Below, in pieces: positions 4,467 to 19,542 of a stretch of DNA of 32,896 nt (within the stretch, counting starts at the first letter, position 1; every line of letters begins with the position of its first letter). The notes below the pieces were generated by a model. That model had not been told where the DNA came from. It did no database searches and worked only from the letters and a program-made list of their open reading frames with translations. The DNA is taken from the IMG/VR virus record IMGVR_UViG_3300026209_000620, positions 1 to 32,896 of that record. One strand, 5' to 3'. The DNA comes from a virus. The translations under genes and the position numbers were made by a program.

Positions 4467-7226
4467 ATGATTAGACGTAATCTTATAGTATCACTTATGA
4501 TGATGACTGGATTGTTTGCACAATCTATTGTCGGAAATGTAACTGATGCTAATTCAGATCCTTTGGTTGGAGCAAATGTAGTAGTAGAAGGTACAGATTT
4601 AGGTACAGTTTCGGGAGAAGCTGGAGCTTATTCGATAGATGTAAAATCTGGAACTTATACTATTACTGTTTCATTCATCGGATACTCATCTCTATCTCAA
4701 ACGGTAGATGTGGGTGAAGAAAATGTAAGTGTTAATTTTTCATTAGAAATTGATGCACTTACTTTGTCGGCACTTGAAGTTTTGGCTTCAAGAGCTGATG
4801 ATAAAACACCTGTTGCTTATACAACAGTTGGTAAGGAAGAGTTAGAGTTTCGTCTTGGTTCACAAGATGTACCAATGGCTCTAAATACTACACCAAGTGT
4901 TTATGCTACTCAACAAGGTGGCGGTGCAGGTGATGCACGAATAAATGTTCGTGGTTTCAATCAGAGAAATGTTGCGGTAATGATTAACGGAGTTCCCCAA
5001 AATGATATGGAGAACGGATGGGTTTATTGGAGTAATTGGGATGGAGTTGCAGATGCAGCACAATCTATTCAGTTACAAAGAGGACTATCAGCTGTTAATT
5101 TAGCTACACCATCAATTGGTGGAACTATGAACATCATAACAAACCCAGCTTCCGCTGAAAAAGGTGGTAAGTTCAAACAAGAAAGTGGTGCAGGTAGTTT
5201 TCTTAAAACTACTATGAATTACAATACTGGTTTGATGATGGGTGATAAGTTAGCATTAAGTGGAACTATTGTTCGTAAGACAGGTGATGGTATCATTGAT
5301 GCAACTTGGACAGATGCTTGGGCTTATTACTTAGGTGGTAGTTTTCAAGCTAATGAAAATAACCGATTTGAGCTATATGCAATCGGTGCTCCACAACGAC
5401 ATGGACAGAACTTATATAAACAGAATATCGCTACTTACTCACAAGAGTTAGCAGGTGATATTGATGGATATGACGAATCAGCATATGCTGATGGTGCTAA
5501 GTTCCAAACAGAAGGTGGTCGTACATTTAACCAAAACTGGGGTCCTGTTAGTTCAGACTATAAGGGCAAACAATATTGGTATATGTATGGTGTCGGTGGA
5601 TTATTTGGTGGTGGAAATCAAGATAGATATAATTCTGGTTTCTTAAATGAAAGAGAAAACTTCTTTCATAAACCATTAGTTAACCTTAACCATTTTATGA
5701 CTATTAACGACAAGACAAGACTAAGTTCAGTATTGTATTGGAGTGGTGGTTCAGGTGGTGGTACAGGAACTTATGGTTCATCATTTAGAAAACCTGCCGT
5801 AGATGGAGAAAAGTGGTACAAGAGTTCACCCTGGGGCTGGGATTGGAATGCAGCTATTGCAACCAACTCAGACAGAGTTGATACTGATTTTCACGCAACT
5901 GAAAATCGTTCAAAGGGTATTCTTCGTAACTCAATCAATCGTCAAGATACTTATGGTTTGATTTCAAAACTTAACTATGAAGTTAGTGATGAGTTAGAAC
6001 TACAAGTTGGTTTAGACTGGAGAACTGCTGGTATAGAACACGCTCGAGAAGTTCGTGATTTATTAGGTGGTGATTACTATGTAGACTATGCTGATGACAA
6101 TGCATCTGATGGTAAGATTGTGAAACTTGGTGATATAATTGCATATCATAATAGTACTACAGTTGATTGGTTAGGTGGATTTATTCAAGGTAATTACACT
6201 AAAGATAAACTTAATGTTTATGGTATGGGTGGATTATCAAGTATTAAATACTCTTATCAGGATCACTTTACAGTAGCTAACGAAGTAGTTAAAGCAGATG
6301 CTATTTCTACTTTCCAAATTAAGGGTGGAGCTATGTATGACGTAGACGATAATGTTAGTGTTTTCGCTAATACAGGATACGTTGAGAAACCACCTATTAT
6401 GGATAACGTAATCTACTTTGACGGAACAGTTGCATCAGACCCTGCTAATGAATCTTTCATTAGTTCAGAAGCTGGTGTTAACTTTAGTTCAGATAACTTC
6501 GCAGTTAAAGTAAGTGCTTATAATACTGATTGGAAAGATAGAAACCTAACTAAATCTGTAACAACAGGTCAAGGTGATTCAGGTGATACTGATGTTATAT
6601 TCCTAAGTGGAATAAATCAGAAACACCAAGGTCTTGAAATTGAAGGTTCAATGAAACTTAATGATATGATTCGTCTTAACGGAGCAGTATCATTTGGTAA
6701 TTGGAAGTTCGATGGTGATGCAGATGGTAACTATCAAGAGAATGAGTATAATGCAGAGGGTCAAGTTATTGGTTTAAAAACCACACCTTACTCTTATGCA
6801 CTTGATGGTTTAATGGTAGGTGATATGCCTCAGACAGCATATGTCGTGGGTGCAGAACTTACACCAATCAAAGGATTAAGATTATCAGGTATCTTTAAGA
6901 TGTATGATAACAATTATTCTGATTGGAGCCCTAACGCACGTGAGTATGATGGAAGTGACGCTAACGCTGATAGAGAACAAGTATGGATGGCGCCAGCATA
7001 CAATCGTTTAGACTTACATGGTTCATATAAACTACCTAAGATTGGTGGTTTAGATATGTCTTTAACAGGTCATGTATTTAACGCTCTTGATGCACTCTAT
7101 GTACAAGACGCGGTTGATAACTCACAATATAATGGTTTTGGTGATAAAATGCACCTACCACATAACGCTGAGGTATTCTTAGGAACACCACGTTATGCTA
7201 ATATTGGATTAGTTGTTAATTTCTAA
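4467..7226 (+). CDS. TonB-dependent outer-membrane receptor with CarboxypepD_reg-like N-terminus
   Basis: This encodes a complete 919-residue TonB-dependent receptor, a gated outer-membrane beta-barrel that imports a scarce ligand. A signal peptide (residues 1 to about 19, a basic start then LIVSLMMMTGLFAQ) precedes a carboxypeptidase-regulatory-like beta domain (about 20-95). The plug follows (about 110-225), with DARINVRGFNQRNVAVMING, NGWVYWSNWDG and the SIGGTMNII end. The rest is barrel, with repeated aromatic strands and a C-terminal Phe (RYANIGLVVNF) as the assembly signal. The style matches Bacteroidota/Marinimicrobia receptors. The ATG follows GAGGAG (4454-4459). A candidate promoter and leader precede it, and a strong terminator follows, so it is a self-contained unit between two phage replication genes. 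Arginine is often encoded by CGT here, whereas AGA dominates in the polymerase (by eye). The ligand is unknown; cobalamin is a context-based guess. Such a receptor is highly unusual in a phage. Confidence 0.92.
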   Translation: MIRRNLIVSLMMMTGLFAQSIVGNVTDANSDPLVGANVVVEGTDLGTVSGEAGAYSIDVKSGTYTITVSFIGYSSLSQTVDVGEENVSVNFSLEIDALTLSALEVLASRADDKTPVAYTTVGKEELEFRLGSQDVPMALNTTPSVYATQQGGGAGDARINVRGFNQRNVAVMINGVPQNDMENGWVYWSNWDGVADAAQSIQLQRGLSAVNLATPSIGGTMNIITNPASAEKGGKFKQESGAGSFLKTTMNYNTGLMMGDKLALSGTIVRKTGDGIIDATWTDAWAYYLGGSFQANENNRFELYAIGAPQRHGQNLYKQNIATYSQELAGDIDGYDESAYADGAKFQTEGGRTFNQNWGPVSSDYKGKQYWYMYGVGGLFGGGNQDRYNSGFLNERENFFHKPLVNLNHFMTINDKTRLSSVLYWSGGSGGGTGTYGSSFRKPAVDGEKWYKSSPWGWDWNAAIATNSDRVDTDFHATENRSKGILRNSINRQDTYGLISKLNYEVSDELELQVGLDWRTAGIEHAREVRDLLGGDYYVDYADDNASDGKIVKLGDIIAYHNSTTVDWLGGFIQGNYTKDKLNVYGMGGLSSIKYSYQDHFTVANEVVKADAISTFQIKGGAMYDVDDNVSVFANTGYVEKPPIMDNVIYFDGTVASDPANESFISSEAGVNFSSDNFAVKVSAYNTDWKDRNLTKSVTTGQGDSGDTDVIFLSGINQKHQGLEIEGSMKLNDMIRLNGAVSFGNWKFDGDADGNYQENEYNAEGQVIGLKTTPYSYALDGLMVGDMPQTAYVVGAELTPIKGLRLSGIFKMYDNNYSDWSPNAREYDGSDANADREQVWMAPAYNRLDLHGSYKLPKIGGLDMSLTGHVFNALDALYVQDAVDNSQYNGFGDKMHLPHNAEVFLGTPRYANIGLVVNF

Positions 7227-9917: not shown

Positions 9918-10310
9918 ATGATAAAAGTTTGGACTAATGGGTGTTTTGATGTATTACATCGAGGTCATATAGAATTGTTTAAGTATGCTAAATCACTTGG
10001 TCATCATCTTGTAGTTGGTTTAGATAGTGATGATAAGATTAAAAGAGACAAAGGTAGTGGTAGACCTTTCAACACTTATGAAGATAGACGAGAAGTGTTG
10101 TTGTCTATAAAATATATTGATGAAGTTTGGTATTTTAATTCACGGAACGGATTAGTAGAATTAATTAAAAAATATCAACCAGATATATTAGTGATAGGTT
10201 CTGATTGGAAAGGTAGAGATGTGGTAGGAGATGATATAATAGATGATGTTAGATTTTTTGAAAGAGTTGGGGATTATTCTACAACAGAAATATTAAAAGG
10301 TGAATCTTAA
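9918..10310 (+). CDS. hldC: HldC/RfaE2-like sugar-phosphate nucleotidyltransferase
   Basis: This is a cytidylyltransferase-fold enzyme that probably transfers AMP to heptose-1-phosphate to give ADP-heptose, an LPS-core precursor. It has the start motif TNGCFDVLHRGHIE (nucleotide-binding HxGH), the loop VGLDSDDKIKRDKG with RPFNTYEDRREVL, and the C-terminal YSTTEIL that marks RfaE domain II (GYSTT-type ending). At 130 residues it is a normal single domain. It starts two bases after the polymerase stop, and its TAA overlaps the next ATG, so it sits within the replication operon. The matching kinase domain (HldA) is encoded separately at 13939. A glycerol-3-phosphate cytidylyltransferase (TagD) shares the fold and is the main alternative, but the STT ending and the HldA partner favour heptose. 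Confidence 0.78.
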   Translation: MIKVWTNGCFDVLHRGHIELFKYAKSLGHHLVVGLDSDDKIKRDKGSGRPFNTYEDRREVLLSIKYIDEVWYFNSRNGLVELIKKYQPDILVIGSDWKGRDVVGDDIIDDVRFFERVGDYSTTEILKGES

Positions 10311-13343: not shown

Positions 13344-13939
13344 TAGAAGTTTGGGGAGAAACCAAGAAAAAACCTATAAAAAAAGCAACAGCAGGTAAAG
13401 ATGATAAACATATTGTTACACATGATAATAAAATTTATTTTTATGCTGGTGTAAATAGGGAAAGTGCAGCGGAAGTTAACAAAAAAATAGATGAATTACA
13501 AGGAAAGAATTTAAATTTAGGACATACACTCGATATAGATTATCCACCAATTAATATATTCATTAATAGTGGTGGTGGAGGAGTTACATCAGGATTATCT
13601 ATAATGGATACTATATTGAGATGTAAAGTTCCAGTTCACACTTATGTAGATGGATTCTGTGCAAGTGCTGGTACATTTATTTCAGTAGTTGGAAGTAAAA
13701 GATATATGAGTAAAAATTCATATATGTTGATACATCAACTATCCTCTCAATTGTGGGGAAAGTATTCTGAAATTGAAGATGAGAAAAAGAATTTAGACTT
13801 GATGATGACAACAATTAAAAATGTATATAGAGATTATACAAAAGTTCCTACAGAAAAATTAGATGAAATATTAAAACACGATTTGATGTGGGATGCAAAG
13901 ACTTGTTTAAAATATGGAATGATTGATGAGATAGTGTAA
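13340..13939 (+). CDS. clpP: ClpP-like serine protease
   Basis: This is a 199-residue protease of the ClpP fold, which forms barrel-shaped proteolytic chambers fed by a Clp ATPase. Visible features are NIFINSGGGGVTSGLSIMD (oxyanion-hole region), the nucleophile Ser109 in GFCASAGTF, His132 in YMLIHQLSS, and the closing helix KYGMIDEIV. The catalytic Asp is less clear: by eye the usual position aligns with a hydrophobic residue, while D175 and D181 lie nearby. The N-terminus has about 25 extra basic residues (ETKKKPIKKATAGKDDK). It overlaps the clamp loader gene, and its stop overlaps the next ATG. It could act on phage or host proteins with a host Clp ATPase, or process head proteins. No ClpX/A partner is in the window. 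Confidence 0.88.
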   Translation: MIEVWGETKKKPIKKATAGKDDKHIVTHDNKIYFYAGVNRESAAEVNKKIDELQGKNLNLGHTLDIDYPPINIFINSGGGGVTSGLSIMDTILRCKVPVHTYVDGFCASAGTFISVVGSKRYMSKNSYMLIHQLSSQLWGKYSEIEDEKKNLDLMMTTIKNVYRDYTKVPTEKLDEILKHDLMWDAKTCLKYGMIDEIV

Positions 13940-14718
13940 TGAATGTATTAGTTATAGGAGATAGTTGTAAAGATATATTTGTTTATGGAGACATAGATAG
14001 AATTAGTCCAGAAGCACCAGTTCCAGTTTTTGTACCTACACGTGTAGAGTCCAATGGTGGAATGGCACAGAATACTGCTAAAAATGTTGAAGCACTTGAA
14101 ATGACTATCTATACATTAACAAATAAAGATAATATAACTAAGAGACGATATGTAGATAATCGTAGTGGTCAAATGGTTTTACGAGTTGATGAACACGATT
14201 ATTGTGAACGGATAGATACTGTCAATAGATACAATGTAAACAAGAATCAGTTTCATATGTTCCCTACAACTGTAGACCTTGACGCAATTATTATATCAGA
14301 TTATTGTAAAGGGTTTTTGGAAGAAAAAGATATTAAATATATTTGTGAAAATAATAATAATGTATTCGTGGATACTAAGAAAAAACTTGGTAAATGGATT
14401 GCTAAAGCTGATTTTATTAAAATAAATGAGTTAGAGTATAAGAAGAATCATGAATTATTATCAGATGAAGAATTTAAGGAAAAACTTATTGTCACTTTAG
14501 GTGGTAAAGGTTGTAGATACAATGGGAAGGATTTTCCAGTAGAAGAAGTTCCAGTAAAAGATGTAAGTGGAGCAGGTGATACATTTATTGCTGGATTGGT
14601 TAAAGGTTATTTACAAACAAATAACATAGAGAAAGCAATAACATTTGCACAAAAATGTACAACACAAGTTGTACAGAAACACGGTGTTGCCGTAGTCAAT
14701 TTAGGAGAATTAGAATGA
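13939..14718 (+). CDS. hldA: PfkB/HldA-like sugar kinase (compact)
   Basis: This is a ribokinase-family protein closest in motif to the kinase half of HldE (heptose-7-phosphate kinase). The start VLVIGDSCKDIFVYGDIDRI followed by SPEAPVPVF is the HldE signature, and VSGAGDTFIAGLVKGYL carries the GAGD anion hole and catalytic Asp. At 259 residues it is about 50 shorter than a normal HldA domain. The segment between NVEALEMTIYTL and ITKRRYV, which usually holds the first nucleotide/lid region (GxD...), is missing. It may therefore be a minimal or altered-specificity kinase. Together with the nucleotidyltransferase at 9918 it suggests an ADP-heptose route whose GmhA/GmhB steps would come from the host or elsewhere in the phage. 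It overlaps ClpP by one base. Confidence 0.8.
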   Translation: MNVLVIGDSCKDIFVYGDIDRISPEAPVPVFVPTRVESNGGMAQNTAKNVEALEMTIYTLTNKDNITKRRYVDNRSGQMVLRVDEHDYCERIDTVNRYNVNKNQFHMFPTTVDLDAIIISDYCKGFLEEKDIKYICENNNNVFVDTKKKLGKWIAKADFIKINELEYKKNHELLSDEEFKEKLIVTLGGKGCRYNGKDFPVEEVPVKDVSGAGDTFIAGLVKGYLQTNNIEKAITFAQKCTTQVVQKHGVAVVNLGELE

Positions 14719-14963
14719 GTTTTAAACCAATGAAACCACTACCTAAGAAAAAACAAGAGGTAGATTTATCAAAAGCAGACACAATCAAATGTAAAGAATG
14801 TGAGAATTATCTATTTATATCTTCATTTGTTATTAAAAGAATATCAGCATTAATGTCCCCTACGGGTCAAGAAGCACTTGTACCTATTCAGGTTTATAGT
14901 TGTGGTAATTGTGGTCAAGTTCCAACACAATTTTTGGAAGGTAGTGGGTTAGATACAAAATAA
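14715..14963 (+). CDS. Zinc-ribbon protein (82 aa)
   Basis: This is a small protein with two cysteine pairs, CKEC (in TIKCKECENY) and CGNCG (in YSCGNCGQV), separated by about 37 residues, a typical zinc ribbon. I chose the ATG at 14715 because it overlaps the kinase stop (ATGA), follows GGAGAAT, and leaves a natural N-terminus MSFKPMKPLPKK. A longer upstream reading is out of character. Proteins of this kind (N-terminal proline/lysine linker, CxxC, hydrophobic middle, CxxC) are frequent in marine T4-like phages, without known function. RNA polymerase or nucleic-acid binding is possible. Confidence 0.75.
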   Translation: MSFKPMKPLPKKKQEVDLSKADTIKCKECENYLFISSFVIKRISALMSPTGQEALVPIQVYSCGNCGQVPTQFLEGSGLDTK

Positions 14964-14964
14964 A

Positions 14965-15534
14965 ATGTCTAAAATATTAGCTTGTTTATCAGGTGGAGTA
15001 GAGAGTACTTATGGAGTTTATAGGTTATTAAAAGAAACTACTCATGATGTAACATTATTTCATTTATATTTTAGAAATCATCCAAGATATGAAGGTGAAA
15101 CTGAAGCGTGTGAACATATTACAAATTGGTTAGAGAAAAACACACGAAAATTTAAATGGATATCGGCGGATTTAAGTTATAATGGAGTGGATAAAATTAC
15201 ACAACCACCACATTCAGCGGATATATGTTACACTATAACTACCGCGGCAAATATTTGTATTGATGAAAAAGATTATGATGAAGTTAGATTTTTTATAAAT
15301 AAAGAAGAGTGGGATTCAGCTATAGAAGATAGTATTCCTACATTTGACTATCCATTTATGGTTTATTTATTTAATTCAATAGTGAGTAGATTTCCTACAA
15401 TTGATACTAAATTGGGTTTTGATAGAAAAGTAGGTAAGTTAAATAAAAAAGAAGTTTACGAAAAAATACCTGAAGATTTAAGAAAATTTATTCACAGTAA
15501 TGATAAGGAATACAATGTACAGGCAAGTAGGTAA
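14965..15534 (+). CDS. PP-loop ATP pyrophosphatase (QueC-like fold)
   Basis: This 189-residue protein opens with the PP-loop LACLSGGVESTYGVYRLL, the ATP-binding motif of N-type ATP pyrophosphatases that adenylate a substrate carbonyl or carboxylate. The usual Asp of SGGxDS is Glu here. The remaining pattern (TEACEHITNWL, then WISADLSY, then TITTAANICI and KLNKKEVYEKIP) is loosely like QueC, the preQ0 synthase. It lacks the C-terminal zinc-binding cysteine cluster of QueC, so that function is not assured. Other PP-loop enzymes (tRNA thiolation, amidotransferase-type, CysH-type) are alternatives. It overlaps the ligase gene by about 20 bases, which implies tight coupling with the amino-acid-activating enzyme. 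Confidence 0.7.
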   Translation: MSKILACLSGGVESTYGVYRLLKETTHDVTLFHLYFRNHPRYEGETEACEHITNWLEKNTRKFKWISADLSYNGVDKITQPPHSADICYTITTAANICIDEKDYDEVRFFINKEEWDSAIEDSIPTFDYPFMVYLFNSIVSRFPTIDTKLGFDRKVGKLNKKEVYEKIPEDLRKFIHSNDKEYNVQASR

Positions 15535-16924
15535 TGGATTATTTGTTTTAGGTGGGGAGTATGTTGATTTATATTATCAAATACAAGAAAAAACTAAATC
15601 TTTTATAAAAGATGTCTTTGATGGTGAAGAATTATTAACACCAACTATCTTATCACCTGAAAATACAATTCGAAGTAATTATACTAAGTCATTTTCTAAT
15701 CAGACCCAAATGGTACATAGACATTTAGATGGTTCTGAAATTGGAATGAATTCACCTACAGTATGTTATCATATGTATGCTTATTATGAAGATGATTTTG
15801 TTGATGGTAATAAGACTCATATTTTAACTGGTAAATGTAATAGGTTTGAAGAAGGAGAATTAAATGATTTGACAAGACTATTACAATTTACAGGTCAAGA
15901 AATTGTACACATAGGTAGTTATGATTATGTAGAGGATTGTTTTGCTAAATCAGTAGAATATGTAAGATCAATTTTTGAATACATGGATTTAGATTATAAA
16001 TTTGAAGGTGCTACAGACCCATTTTTTGGTAAAGATTCAAGAATTAAAAAGAGGTCACAGAGGATTCATGGTTCTAAGGTAGAATATAAATTATATTTTC
16101 CAAATGAAAAACAGTATTTACCTGTAGGTTCTTTTAATTTTGTTGGTACATCATACCATAAGAGATTTAATATAATAAACACTCAAACAGATGACCCTGC
16201 TTCTGGATGTTGGGGATGGGGATTAGAAAGACTTATGTATGCACTTGTAAGTCAAAAGGGTGAAGATGTTGTTTTTAATTATCCCGTTAAATTAGATGAT
16301 AAGAAAAGAAACGGATATAAAAATATTATAGAGAATGAGGAAGGTTGGTATAGATTGGGTAGTAGAAATTATTGGTTCGCTGAAAACAAAATGGAAAATT
16401 TTAAAGAGATTGATATAGACTTTAAAGATATAGAGTTTGAGGTTATTACTGATTTAGATTCTTTAGATAGACGTAAAGTTGAAATATTAAGGGGACTTGA
16501 GGAATTTGAAAAAGGAGTTGATTGGAATTATAATTGGACATGGAAAGACGCTGAGAGAAGAATAAAAGAAGGACATATTTTAAAAATTGCATTTCATAAT
16601 GGAATGGCAGTACAATGGGATTGGTATTTTACTAATAGTTTTATAATAAAAGACCACGATTCTTGGAGTGCCGTAGTTAATAAGTTACCTAAAGATTATC
16701 ATTATTCAGCACACTGGTATTGTCATCCAAAATATAGAAGTAGTAGAAAATATCCTACATTTATAAAAGATTTTATTTCAGCTTCATATAATTGGAGTTA
16801 TAATAATGGTTACACTACTGATGTAAATTATCAAGATGGTTGGAATTGGAAATCCATTAAGGTTGTTAAAAAAATTGGACACGTTGGTAGAAATTGGTTA
16901 GATGAGTTTGGAACTGTAAAATGA
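15515..16924 (+). CDS. Amino acid:[carrier protein] ligase-like (class II synthetase core) fused to a GNAT-like domain
   Basis: Residues 1 to about 260 resemble the atypical seryl-tRNA-synthetase relatives that charge amino acids onto carrier proteins instead of tRNA. The start GLFVLGGEYVDLYYQ, motif 2 NRFE (109-112) and motif 3 GWGLERL (234-240) are visible, and the tRNA-binding coiled coil is absent. Candidate zinc ligands are C84, E129 and C232; the spacings of 45 and 103 fit my recollection of the Bradyrhizobium enzyme. A typical NDPFFG-like segment occurs as TDPFFGKD. Residues about 300-469 look like a GNAT acyltransferase (KIAFHNGMAVQWDWY, HPKYRSSRKYPTFIK, then VKKIGHV). I preferred ATG 15515, which has AAGGA upstream, over ATG 15500. 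No carrier protein gene is in the window. The fusion suggests activation plus transfer of an amino acid. The substrate and target are unknown. Confidence 0.75.
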   Translation: MYRQVGNGLFVLGGEYVDLYYQIQEKTKSFIKDVFDGEELLTPTILSPENTIRSNYTKSFSNQTQMVHRHLDGSEIGMNSPTVCYHMYAYYEDDFVDGNKTHILTGKCNRFEEGELNDLTRLLQFTGQEIVHIGSYDYVEDCFAKSVEYVRSIFEYMDLDYKFEGATDPFFGKDSRIKKRSQRIHGSKVEYKLYFPNEKQYLPVGSFNFVGTSYHKRFNIINTQTDDPASGCWGWGLERLMYALVSQKGEDVVFNYPVKLDDKKRNGYKNIIENEEGWYRLGSRNYWFAENKMENFKEIDIDFKDIEFEVITDLDSLDRRKVEILRGLEEFEKGVDWNYNWTWKDAERRIKEGHILKIAFHNGMAVQWDWYFTNSFIIKDHDSWSAVVNKLPKDYHYSAHWYCHPKYRSSRKYPTFIKDFISASYNWSYNNGYTTDVNYQDGWNWKSIKVVKKIGHVGRNWLDEFGTVK

Positions 16925-17484
16925 AAATATTTGTATTAGGATATAATAAAACTGGTACTAAAAGTTTAGAAACGGCTATTAAGACACTTGGATATAGTGC
17001 GTTACATACTGGAGGTGGAAAATGTACTGAGGAAATTTATTATAATATGTACAATAATAGACCTATTTTACATGGTATAGATTATCAAAGTTATTTAGAT
17101 TATCCAATTTATGAACCAACTGTATTTAGTCATATTGTACACGAATATCCAGACGCAAAATATATTAGTTTAACTCGTGATTTGGATGGTTATGTAGATT
17201 CTGTTTTGAGAGATAAAGTAAAAAGATTAGAAGATGGAATTGTGGATTCTTGGAATTGGTTAGGTGTGGGAGATAAAGAAGTATTTGAAAATTATCCAGA
17301 TTATCAAAAAGAGTGGATTAAAGAACGGACATTATTTAAACATCATAGTAACATTAGTTTGTTAAAAAAGAATAATATAGAATATTTAAATATGAATATT
17401 ATTGATGATAGAGATGGTTGGGAGAAGTTATGTGGGTATTTAAGTCATTCAATACCTGAAGTTGACTTTCCAAGAGTTAAATGA
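16921..17484 (+). CDS. Sulfotransferase-family protein
   Basis: This 187-residue protein has the hallmark start FVLGYNKTGTKSLETAIKTL, the 5'-phosphosulfate loop of P-loop sulfotransferases (K10 in NKTGT). A later segment, KYISLTRDLDGYVDSVLRDK, fits the 3'-phosphate-binding strand and helix (Arg and Ser). The middle holds an HIVHEYPDAKY helix-strand pair usual for the family. It would transfer sulfate from PAPS to a hydroxyl or amine of an unknown acceptor. It overlaps the ligase gene by four bases and the oxygenase by four bases, so the three form one translation unit. No PAPS synthesis genes are seen, so PAPS would come from the host. Confidence 0.78.
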   Translation: MKIFVLGYNKTGTKSLETAIKTLGYSALHTGGGKCTEEIYYNMYNNRPILHGIDYQSYLDYPIYEPTVFSHIVHEYPDAKYISLTRDLDGYVDSVLRDKVKRLEDGIVDSWNWLGVGDKEVFENYPDYQKEWIKERTLFKHHSNISLLKKNNIEYLNMNIIDDRDGWEKLCGYLSHSIPEVDFPRVK

Positions 17485-18032
17485 TGGATAATATAGTACT
17501 TAACCAAGTTTTTTCTGAATCAGAGTGTAAGAAAATAATTGATTCTAAGGGTGAGTTTATAAAGTCACCTCAAGAAATGAATGATAAAAAATATAATATT
17601 ATACCTGATGAGTCTAATTATACTTTTGGACATACTAACTTTCCTTATTGGCATTTAGAAATTTCAGATGAAAATGAGTGGTTTTTTGAGAAGGTGAGAG
17701 AATGTATAGATATGGTAAATATGAAATTTTTTAAGTTTGAAAATCAAGGTTTATGGAATTCTGGAATAAAAGAATATTCTAATGGAAATGGTTGTTCTTG
17801 GCATTTTGATGATATGAGTCGAGGAAAAAGATTAGGAATTTCAATTTTATTAAATAAACCAGAGAAAGGTGGGGAATTTGAAATTTTTAATGGAGAGAAA
17901 ACAACTATAGATTTAAAGGTTGGTGAGGCAGTAATATTTCCAGCCTTCATTTTTCATAGAATTAAACCAGTATTTAAGGGAACACGTACTTCTTTAGTAA
18001 GTTGGACGTATAGTAATCCGATTAATTTTTAA
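17481..18032 (+). CDS. 2-oxoglutarate/Fe(II)-dependent oxygenase (prolyl-hydroxylase-like)
   Basis: This is a 183-residue double-stranded beta-helix oxygenase. The metal ligands are H108 and D110 in CSWHFDD and H159 in FIFHRIKP; R169 in KGTRTSLVSW is placed to bind 2-oxoglutarate. GGEFEIF and VGEAVIFPAF are the usual strands of the 2OG-FeII_Oxy (prolyl 4-hydroxylase-like) group. It probably hydroxylates a peptide, sugar or base that is also handled by the upstream sulfotransferase and ligase. The gene starts at ATG 17481, overlapping the preceding TGA. An in-frame ATG at 17484 is equally possible. It ends the accessory cluster before a probable virion gene. Confidence 0.85.
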   Translation: MMDNIVLNQVFSESECKKIIDSKGEFIKSPQEMNDKKYNIIPDESNYTFGHTNFPYWHLEISDENEWFFEKVRECIDMVNMKFFKFENQGLWNSGIKEYSNGNGCSWHFDDMSRGKRLGISILLNKPEKGGEFEIFNGEKTTIDLKVGEAVIFPAFIFHRIKPVFKGTRTSLVSWTYSNPINF

Positions 18033-18069: not shown

Positions 18070-19542
18070 ATGGCAATATTTGATTACAATACATATAGTT
18101 CTTCGTTGAAAACATCTTCACACGTCATAGGAGATGCTTTAGCTACTGGTTCTTATGGATATTATGGATCGGTGGACGGACAATCTCAGATAACCAATGT
18201 GGGTGAGATTGTTACTATGGATTTCACTCCATCTTCAGGTTCACTCTATTTAACTGAAATAAACGCAGATGTTGGATTATGGAATCAACAAGCAATAGCT
18301 CAAACAGGATTTGATTTTGATGCACTATCTTCATTTGTCTCTACATCTAAATATGAAAAGATTCATTATGTGTTTTCTTCTTACGATAGTGGTTCAGCAA
18401 CACCAGGAGATTATTGGATAACTTGTGCAAGTCAGAGTGCAGCTGACCATAATTTAGGATATGAATCAACTTGGGTACAACCAAAATCAACAAATTCTAC
18501 TATTTTACAGTTATCAATGCCATCTGGTAGTAATTCAGGGTCATTCTATGTAGTTAACTGTCCATTGAGGGATAGTGGTTTAATTGATATTACACGAAAC
18601 AAAATTAATTTTAGAAATTGGTTTACGAGTCAAAGTGTTAACATGACGAACAATGGTGTACAAATGCCAACTACAACTGGTTCTTATAATGTAAACGCAA
18701 ATGGGGATAATTGGCCTGATGTGGTTGTCAAAGACCCATCATTGGATGCTGGACATGGTTTAAGTTTTTATAATGTTACTAATTCTACTTTACCTACCAT
18801 AACTGGTAGTTCTTATCATGAATCATTTGTGACTCCAGATGTTGATTCTAATGGGTATCCATGTATTTTAAAAGGAAGTGTGTTGGTACATTGTAGTGGT
18901 TCTACTTGGTTAAGACCAACTGATAGTTTACCATATTGGTATTATAATGATAAATACACTACTTCAGGTTCAACTCAATGGGAATTCAAACCAACTCAGT
19001 TTGTTGGAAACTTTGGAGCTGGTACTAAAATAGCTATGAGTGATGGAAATTATACAAATATAGAAAGTGTAACTTCAGGTTCGTCAGTAAAATGTGGTAG
19101 AGTGAGTAATGAATTTTCAGGTAAAGTATATGTTACATTATCACAAGATGATAGACTTGATTCGGGACTTGATGAATCGTGGAGAAGTTGGGAATCTTCA
19201 AGTATTTCAGATTTAGATGTCACTACATCTAATGTAATAAGTACTCAAACTTTTGGATATACAAAATGGTGTAAGATTAATAATTCTTTAGAGGTTTCAT
19301 TATTTCAACATCTATTTATAAAAGATGATAACAATGTTTATCGTTTTTGTGAACCAAGACATATCAAAACTGGTTACAAATTAATTAATCCAGGTAAAGC
19401 AGAAGTAAATGTAGATTCTATTGTGATAGAAAGTGGTTCTGTTAAAGCTTTTTATGGATTAGATTTAGAAGAACAAAGTACATATTTTACTTCTGAAAGT
19501 TTAGCAGTAAACTTTTATACTAGTCCACCAACAATTGGATAG
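18070..19542 (+). CDS. Probable virion protein with degenerate Hint (intein-like) domain
   Basis: This is a 490-residue protein rich in Ser, Thr, Gly and Asn, like phage tail or fibre proteins. Residues 1 to about 310 are beta-rich and unrecognised. Residues about 314-481 have the layout of a Hint (hedgehog/intein) domain: NFGAGTKIAMSDGNYTNIES at the start (normally C-F-x-x-G-T-x-I...DG...I), then QHLFIKDDNNVYRF, HIKTGYKLI, and FYGLDLEEQSTYFTSES followed by LAVN. The first catalytic Cys is replaced by Asn314, and the usual His before the terminal Asn481 is Val480, so splicing or cleavage is probably lost. The ATG follows AGGACAAGTAGGA. A gp62-like gene comes next, so its placement among replication genes is odd. 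The structural role is inferred from composition. Confidence 0.6.
   Translation: MAIFDYNTYSSSLKTSSHVIGDALATGSYGYYGSVDGQSQITNVGEIVTMDFTPSSGSLYLTEINADVGLWNQQAIAQTGFDFDALSSFVSTSKYEKIHYVFSSYDSGSATPGDYWITCASQSAADHNLGYESTWVQPKSTNSTILQLSMPSGSNSGSFYVVNCPLRDSGLIDITRNKINFRNWFTSQSVNMTNNGVQMPTTTGSYNVNANGDNWPDVVVKDPSLDAGHGLSFYNVTNSTLPTITGSSYHESFVTPDVDSNGYPCILKGSVLVHCSGSTWLRPTDSLPYWYYNDKYTTSGSTQWEFKPTQFVGNFGAGTKIAMSDGNYTNIESVTSGSSVKCGRVSNEFSGKVYVTLSQDDRLDSGLDESWRSWESSSISDLDVTTSNVISTQTFGYTKWCKINNSLEVSLFQHLFIKDDNNVYRFCEPRHIKTGYKLINPGKAEVNVDSIVIESGSVKAFYGLDLEEQSTYFTSESLAVNFYTSPPTIG

Follow-up and report, generated by a model that had tools for sequence, protein, structure and literature searches.

The 32,896-nt stretch of DNA recorded in IMG/VR as the contig IMGVR_UViG_3300026209_000620, termed the window here, comes from a marine T4-like phage; it encodes gp41 helicase, ribonucleotide reductase (RNR), PolB, the sliding clamp and the clamp loader. 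It has four overlapping, collinear open reading frames (ORFs), with overlaps of 35, 4 and 4 nt (Table 1), just where a reading made from the sequence alone (the sequence-only reading) had placed them. The second ORF (15500–16924) is one continuous protein of 474 amino acids (aa) that joins a class II synthetase-like ligase domain to a GNAT-fold transferase domain; this ligase-GNAT fusion is the subject here. The sugar-kinase gene that lies upstream, used as a query, retrieved 80 related loci. Labels such as L001, L022 and L048 denote the related contigs and loci compared, and all phage contigs compared are partial genomes.

The ligase-GNAT fusion and its relatives

By phmmer, the best Protein Data Bank (PDB) matches of the ligase half are 3mey, the amino acid:[acyl carrier protein (ACP)] ligase Bll0957 (3.7e-12), and the archaeal type-2 SerRS 2cim (1.1e-8). 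These matches are confined to residues ~85–267 of the fusion, and a profile search lifts the structure match to 1.7e-14. The NCBIfam models for type-2 SerRS (6.7e-25) and amino acid-[ACP] ligase (2.1e-23) both match the window protein far below their equivalog cut-offs; that of the ligase model, PRK07080.1, is 357 bits, against 82.7 bits for the window protein and 100.9 bits for the L048 homologue. The latter favours the amino acid-[ACP] ligase (6.4e-29 vs 3.2e-17 for SerRS), and in a Foldseek search with the predicted model the Bll0957 entries rank first, including the carrier-protein complex 4h2s (5e-13). The class II synthetase identity that the sequence-only reading gave to the N-terminal half thus agrees with PDB, NCBIfam and Foldseek matches alike.

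The motif 2 and 3 arginines, R115 and R244, and the set C89/E134/C237 are unchanged in a homologue at ~30% identity, and the C/E/C set is also present in L048; both motifs and the zinc set had been pointed out from the sequence, and they prove invariant. The three set residues align with C151, E196 and C299 of the Bll0957 chain, which we take to be its zinc ligands. Only ~24 residues precede the region that can be aligned with the ligase core, which fits the absence of a tRNA-binding arm, also noted earlier. A carrier-docking helix seems to be kept, as a candidate, because residues 173–191 align without gaps to a segment that differs between native and engineered Bll0957 chains; helix 181–190 is present in the predicted model at low confidence.

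Taken alone, the GNAT domain of the window has no Pfam match. It aligns over its full length with a PF00583-positive homologue, itself full length (L021:2599-4041), which scores 28.6–30.7 bits (cut-off 20.7). A profile of GNAT halves and lone relatives matches GNAT structures (best 2jlm, 5e-8), and from residue 312 onward the topology of the AlphaFold model is that of a GNAT. This model reached a mean predicted local distance difference test score (pLDDT) of 70.5 with divergent homologues and lone GNATs in the input, compared with 36 from five near-identical sequences. The GNAT identity proposed for the C-terminal half is upheld by this homologue and by the structure matches of the profile.

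The GNAT lies in a variable cargo island between a zinc-ribbon gene and the clamp-loader gene gp62, the contents of which differ among relatives. An empty-site form, with gp62 directly after the zinc-ribbon gene, is found in L039, L053 and L062–L065, and the interval is an accessory-gene hotspot of this phage group. At the position of the fusion, several relatives have a lone GNAT of 142–151 aa (L034, L040, L042, L051, L055, L056 and L060), and in others the GNAT is joined to a QueC-like PP-loop domain (L032, L033, L035, L038, L043 and L057). The GNAT-fused PP-loop domains of L035 and L038 pass PF06508 (24.6 and 27.5 bits, respectively, vs 22). No match to the QueC-GNAT fusion was found among 50,697 phage records, nor is it mentioned in the QueC family paper, searched for GNAT and acetyltransferase. 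The QueC-like domain of these fusions (e.g. L035:2452-3624) has the CGKCxxC tail.

The ligase-fused GNATs differ from these relatives in the pyrophosphate loop that binds coenzyme A (CoA). Their loops read RSSRKY, RSNRKY, RLKRGL and RYVRNL, none of which is RxxGxG, whereas RxxGxG is kept in all eight lone or QueC-fused relatives in the loop alignment (with loops RNTGYG, RNKGWG, RGNGIG, RDSGYG, RKKGYG, RDGGYG and RKKGLG). It should be pointed out that the QueC-fused GNAT of L032 is also without RxxGxG (RGTPLF), and loss of the loop is therefore not unique to ligase fusions, though universal in them. Because the CoA loop is lost in every ligase-fused GNAT and kept in most lone or QueC-fused relatives, an aminoacyl group from the attached ligase may have taken the place of CoA as donor. 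The sequence-only reading had missed both this loss and the swap of partners around one GNAT (lone, QueC-fused or ligase-fused). A DSL triplet at residues 320–322 was considered as a built-in phosphopantetheine site and rejected; it has no carrier-fold match and sits at the first GNAT strand/helix.

Full-length fusions were found solely in viral contigs, from uncultured marine phages. Close ones, at 76–80% identity and some of them near duplicates, occur in further IMG/VR contigs, and divergent ones in L022 and L048 (~28–38% identity); the homologue in contig 3300048880_000277 (L021/L022/L023) is 28% identical over 482 aa. Because two divergent phage lineages keep the full fusion, it is evidently not an artefact. 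Ratios of nonsynonymous to synonymous substitution rates (dN/dS) of 0.15–0.23 for the ligase half and 0.30–0.45 for the GNAT half indicate that both are maintained by selection. The fusion called by the sequence-only reading is thus real, kept in three divergent lineages and under purifying selection in both halves. A genome collection scanned with sequence patterns gave no relative of the fusion, and phage and plasmid records gave relatives of the N-terminal half only, which are unfused carrier-type ligases. A hit in L025 from a degenerate CWGWGxxER scan was discarded as a chance match in a GC-rich frame.

Two records deserve mention in their own right. MT835751.1 (L011), labelled ‘Bacteriophage sp.’, has ABC transporter genes, a carrier-type ligase with a carrier, and transposase-like genes, and is probably bacterial DNA. 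The fusion gene L004:4957-6378 is a mosaic; fusion residues ~300–370 are identical to the window protein and the flanks differ by >20%, and it appears to be a recombinant within the gene.

Table 1. Features of the cargo island and of the ligase-GNAT fusion, in window coordinates
Feature	Position	Strand	Basis
PfkB/HldE-type sugar kinase, conserved at the left edge of the cargo island	13939..14718	+	PF00294 7e-22, TIGR02198 6e-35; zinc-ribbon gene next in nearly all relatives
Zinc-ribbon protein, 83 aa from an internal start; the conserved genes end here, ahead of the variable island	14712..14963	+	PF03604 0.0006, below cut-off
Small PP-loop (HUP) ATPase, SGGVES motif, optional ligase partner	14965..15534	+	Weak profile matches
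Ligase domain of the fusion (class II synthetase-like), residues 1–262, boundary approximate	15500..16285	+	PDB, NCBIfam and Foldseek matches
C89, predicted zinc ligand	15764..15766	+	Aligned with 3mey chain C151; invariant
R115, motif 2 arginine (R115..E117)	15842..15844	+	Alignment; invariant in ~30% homologue
E134, predicted zinc ligand	15899..15901	+	Aligned with 3mey chain E196; invariant
Residues 173–191 (DPFFG and helix), candidate docking helix	16016..16072	+	Ungapped against the segment differing between native 4h2s and engineered 4h2w Bll0957 chains
C237, predicted zinc ligand	16208..16210	+	Aligned with 3mey chain C299; invariant
R244, motif 3 arginine (WGWGLER)	16229..16231	+	Alignment; invariant in ~30% homologue
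Linker of the fusion, residues 263–305	16286..16414	+	Model, low confidence at ~265–279
GNAT-fold transferase domain of the fusion, residues 306–474	16415..16921	+	Homologue L021 above PF00583 cut-off; model pLDDT mostly 75–97
Degenerate GNAT pyrophosphate loop RSSRKY (R413–Y418), replacing RxxGxG	16736..16753	+	Alignment of relatives
Sulfotransferase (Sulfotransfer_4), general island cargo	16921..17484	+	PF17784 2e-18
2-oxoglutarate (2OG)-Fe(II) oxygenase, general island cargo	17481..18032	+	PF13640 1.7e-9; phrog_61 2.8e-21
‘TEINTN’ protein, C-terminal intein-like (Hint/BIL) domain	18070..19542	+	Family in every GNAT-bearing island with enough flank

A proposed two-step aminoacyl transfer

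The domain identities, the conserved catalytic residues, the conservation of the fusion and the loss of the CoA loop are established by the analysis. From these we infer an amino acid, a carrier, an acceptor and a biological role, in a proposal to which we give an even chance: the 474-aa protein would be a two-step aminoacyl transferase. The SerRS-derived ligase domain would activate a small amino acid (Gly/Ala/Ser-like, with its amino group held by zinc) to aminoacyl-AMP. The aminoacyl group would then go to a phosphopantetheine thiol, most likely that of a host ACP, or straight to the next domain. The tethered GNAT domain, having lost its CoA pyrophosphate loop, would pass it to an amine, and the likeliest acceptor would be an amino sugar within a glycan, either on a surface or on the virion.

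A host ACP is put forward as the most likely carrier because the docking segment appears to be kept and a gene for a FabZ-type dehydratase, which acts on ACP thioesters, comes directly after that of the ligase both in L004 and in L022, which are divergent lineages. There is also a known GNAT, SbzC, that accepts an aminoacyl-carrier thioester (PMC6331615). The acceptor can only be guessed at. In favour of an amino sugar are the glycan genes of the window (NeuB, a PseF-like synthetase, several glycosyltransferases, and HldE kinase and adenylyltransferase), the PIG-L deacetylase of some islands, which would expose an amine, and the prediction by Iyer and colleagues of an amino-sugar acceptor for the bacterial SerRS-paralogue system (PMC2922099).

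The sequence-only reading had suggested a search of the genome for a carrier protein. Extended to ~30 related partial contigs of up to 216 kb, with the ligase or without, a PF00550 search found no carrier protein, and PF01648 found no ACP synthase in the ligase-bearing contigs searched with it. The PF00550 search did detect the carrier beside the unfused homologue in MT835751. A phage-encoded carrier is thereby made less likely, the partial state of the contigs considered.

Several observations weigh against the two-step proposal. The ligase-bearing contigs, incomplete as they are, show no carrier protein, and the docking-helix region is of low confidence in the model. The glycan genes are 4–14 kb from the fusion and of a kind common in marine T4-like phages. 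The window contig has neither PIG-L nor FabZ, and PIG-L is also found in relatives that have no ligase.

The transfer may instead proceed with no carrier, in that the fused GNAT would immediately use the aminoacyl-AMP of the ligase (or an aminoacyl-CoA), the fusion itself replacing the carrier. This fits the lack of a carrier gene in the ~30 related contigs and a GNAT devoid of the CoA loop, and SbzA, a tRNA-synthetase-like enzyme that hands Ile straight to a small molecule, is a precedent (PMC6331615). Against it, the fusion retains the segment that aligns with the carrier-docking region, two lineages have a FabZ-type gene after the ligase, a host ACP is always available, and the contigs are incomplete; we consider this direct route possible but doubtful. 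A wider concept is that of a tRNA- and carrier-free phage aminoacyl transferase, whereby the class II core feeds its adenylate directly to a tethered GNAT that has given up its CoA site, and one GNAT works with different activating enzymes (class II or QueC-like) to place different acyl groups on a common phage-made acceptor. As a whole, this appears unlikely.

As to the acceptor, a protein is the chief alternative to the amino sugar. The most likely protein would be the co-encoded TEINTN/Hint family, and the island would serve to modify proteins (with aminoacyl, sulfate and hydroxyl groups). All GNAT-bearing islands with enough flank contain a TEINTN-family gene, often with a 4-nt overlap with the GNAT gene or within 20 nt of it. 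The QueC-GNAT fusions lend support as well, because for QueC-family enzymes of CBASS and Qat a modification of protein N-termini has been reported or proposed (PMC11996544, PMC13329287). Yet the TEINTN family also occurs without a GNAT (L059, L061) and may be an unrelated structural cargo gene, two genes separate it from the ligase in the window, and its N-domain matches no solved fold; a protein acceptor is rather improbable. Attachment of the amino acid to a modified base of phage DNA, one of the acceptors named in the sequence-only reading, is not favoured and seems very improbable. The window does have DNA methylases and an NMAD1 (DUF1599) protein, and relatives have QueC-like genes, but no thymidylate-synthase/hydroxymethylase family and no QueD were found in 15 related partial contigs, and glycan genes are abundant. 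There is a very slim chance that the protein, its ligase degenerate, is no more than an acyltransferase or binding protein. The N-terminal 85 residues match known ligases weakly; against this, the motif 2 and 3 arginines and the three zinc ligands are invariant at ~30% identity, and dN/dS is ~0.2 in the ligase half.

Comparison with known systems

Bll0957 of Bradyrhizobium, a glycine:[carrier protein] ligase, and its homologues are closest to the ligase half. They share with it a class II core without a tRNA arm, the C/E/C positions, motifs 2 and 3 and an ungapped segment at the docking position, and give the best structure match. Known members are unfused proteins, and a carrier gene often lies next to theirs (as for the homologues in L009 and L011), whereas the phage protein is fused to a GNAT, has no carrier that could be found and is ~23–28% identical. 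ErdS, an AspRS fused to a transferase domain, resembles the phage protein in layout. LysX (LysRS-MprF) likewise joins a synthetase paralogue to an aminoacyl-transferase domain (PMC9437257), and MprF has been described as a GNAT fold (PMC2922099). In LysX and ErdS, however, the amino acid goes through tRNA to lipid, whereas the phage fusion is without a tRNA-binding domain and its GNAT is of another family (Acetyltransf_1); profile searches with Pfam and NCBIfam found neither a tRNA-binding (anticodon) domain nor an MprF-type transferase in it.

Activation of an amino acid with subsequent GNAT-type transfer onto a small molecule is also seen with VlmL/VlmA (valanimycin) and with SbzB/SbzC and SbzA (SB-203208; PMC2922099, PMC6331615). 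Unlike the phage fusion, these are separate proteins of Streptomyces secondary metabolism and depend on tRNA or ACP, SbzA being direct. The mycothiol enzymes MshB, MshC and MshD (a PIG-L deacetylase, a synthetase-like ligase and a GNAT) act on an amino sugar. The L002–L004 islands similarly combine PIG-L with the ligase-GNAT fusion, although MshC is class I and derived from CysRS, the mycothiol enzymes are separate proteins and the window island is without PIG-L.

Synthetase paralogues coupled to GNAT-fold transferases are therefore already known (PMC9437257, PMC2922099, PMC6331615). A literature search, with most subscription papers outside its reach, found no description of such a ligase-GNAT fusion, viruses included. 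What is new is the combination: a class II core of the carrier-ligase type, free of a tRNA domain, with an Acetyltransf_1 GNAT that has no CoA loop, in phages, at a locus that also pairs the GNAT with an unrelated activating enzyme. The role of synthetase-derived carrier-protein ligases was stated as unknown in a 2022 review (PMC9437257). If the two-step proposal is true, the fusion would provide a single-protein, easily assayed test of what such ligases do, it would show how a CoA-dependent acyltransferase can turn into an aminoacyltransferase once an activating enzyme of its own is attached, and amino acids would join the groups that phages add to glycans or proteins.

Neighbouring genes

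Co-occurrence with the ligase was counted in 20 contigs with enough flank, six with the ligase and 14 without; these are partly related, and the p-values are therefore optimistic. The small PP-loop gene weakly tracks the ligase, being present in 3/6 ligase contigs and 0/14 others (p=0.018, from few, partly related contigs). Its relatives, at 75–85% identity, are found in L002, L005, L020 and L021, and it is absent beside the ligase in L003, L004 and L006. The sequence-only reading termed the product a PP-loop ATPase; the SGGVES motif and HUP/QueC-like matches speak for this call, the matches being weak and sub-threshold (PF03054 0.0018, phrog_1550 1.9e-4). The window protein has neither a QueC profile match nor the C-terminal Cys cluster/zinc motif of QueC.

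The sulfotransferase and the 2OG oxygenase were correctly identified from the sequence (Table 1). The idea that they act on the ligase product finds no support, as neither shows a significant tie to the ligase (3/6 with vs 5/14 without, and 4/6 vs 4/14, respectively); for this reason both look like common island cargo and not specific partners. The exact four-gene order, a set that had been thought worth seeking in other phages, was seen only within the population of the window (L001 is identical and L007 truncated). A four-gene functional unit is thus unsupported by the counts and is rejected.

The FabZ-type dehydratase is found in 2/6 contigs with the ligase and 0/14 without (p=0.08). PIG-L is present in the L002–L005 islands, and relatives without the ligase have it elsewhere. 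The L022 island, which has the ligase-GNAT fusion, also contains a gene resembling pyridoxal phosphate (PLP)-dependent diaminopimelate/ornithine decarboxylases (L022:10361-11410; TIGR01048 9e-35).

Long TEINTN members end in an intein-like Hint domain, which matches the BIL structures 6tmm/6y75 (7e-10) and, in L040 and L051, Pfam models. The N-domain gave no match to any solved fold in a profile search. It looks motif-like for an ATP-grasp by eye, and this assignment was rejected since profile searches do not support it. Among the variants (18070–19542 of the window; L034, L040, L051, L056 and L059), some have a second Hint domain or a tail rich in repeats (L040, 924 aa), and short copies of the N-domain without Hint are also present.

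Elsewhere in the window, HldE is split into a heptose-phosphate adenylyltransferase-like gene (9918–10310) and the heptose-kinase-like gene at the island boundary, which is related to kinases of cyanophages such as S-SM2 and S-CAM1. Between RNR and PolB there is a TonB-dependent receptor of 919 aa (4467–7226) with CarboxypepD_reg and Plug domains; the G+C content of its gene, 0.37–0.38, is above that of the surroundings, and the gene looks host-acquired.

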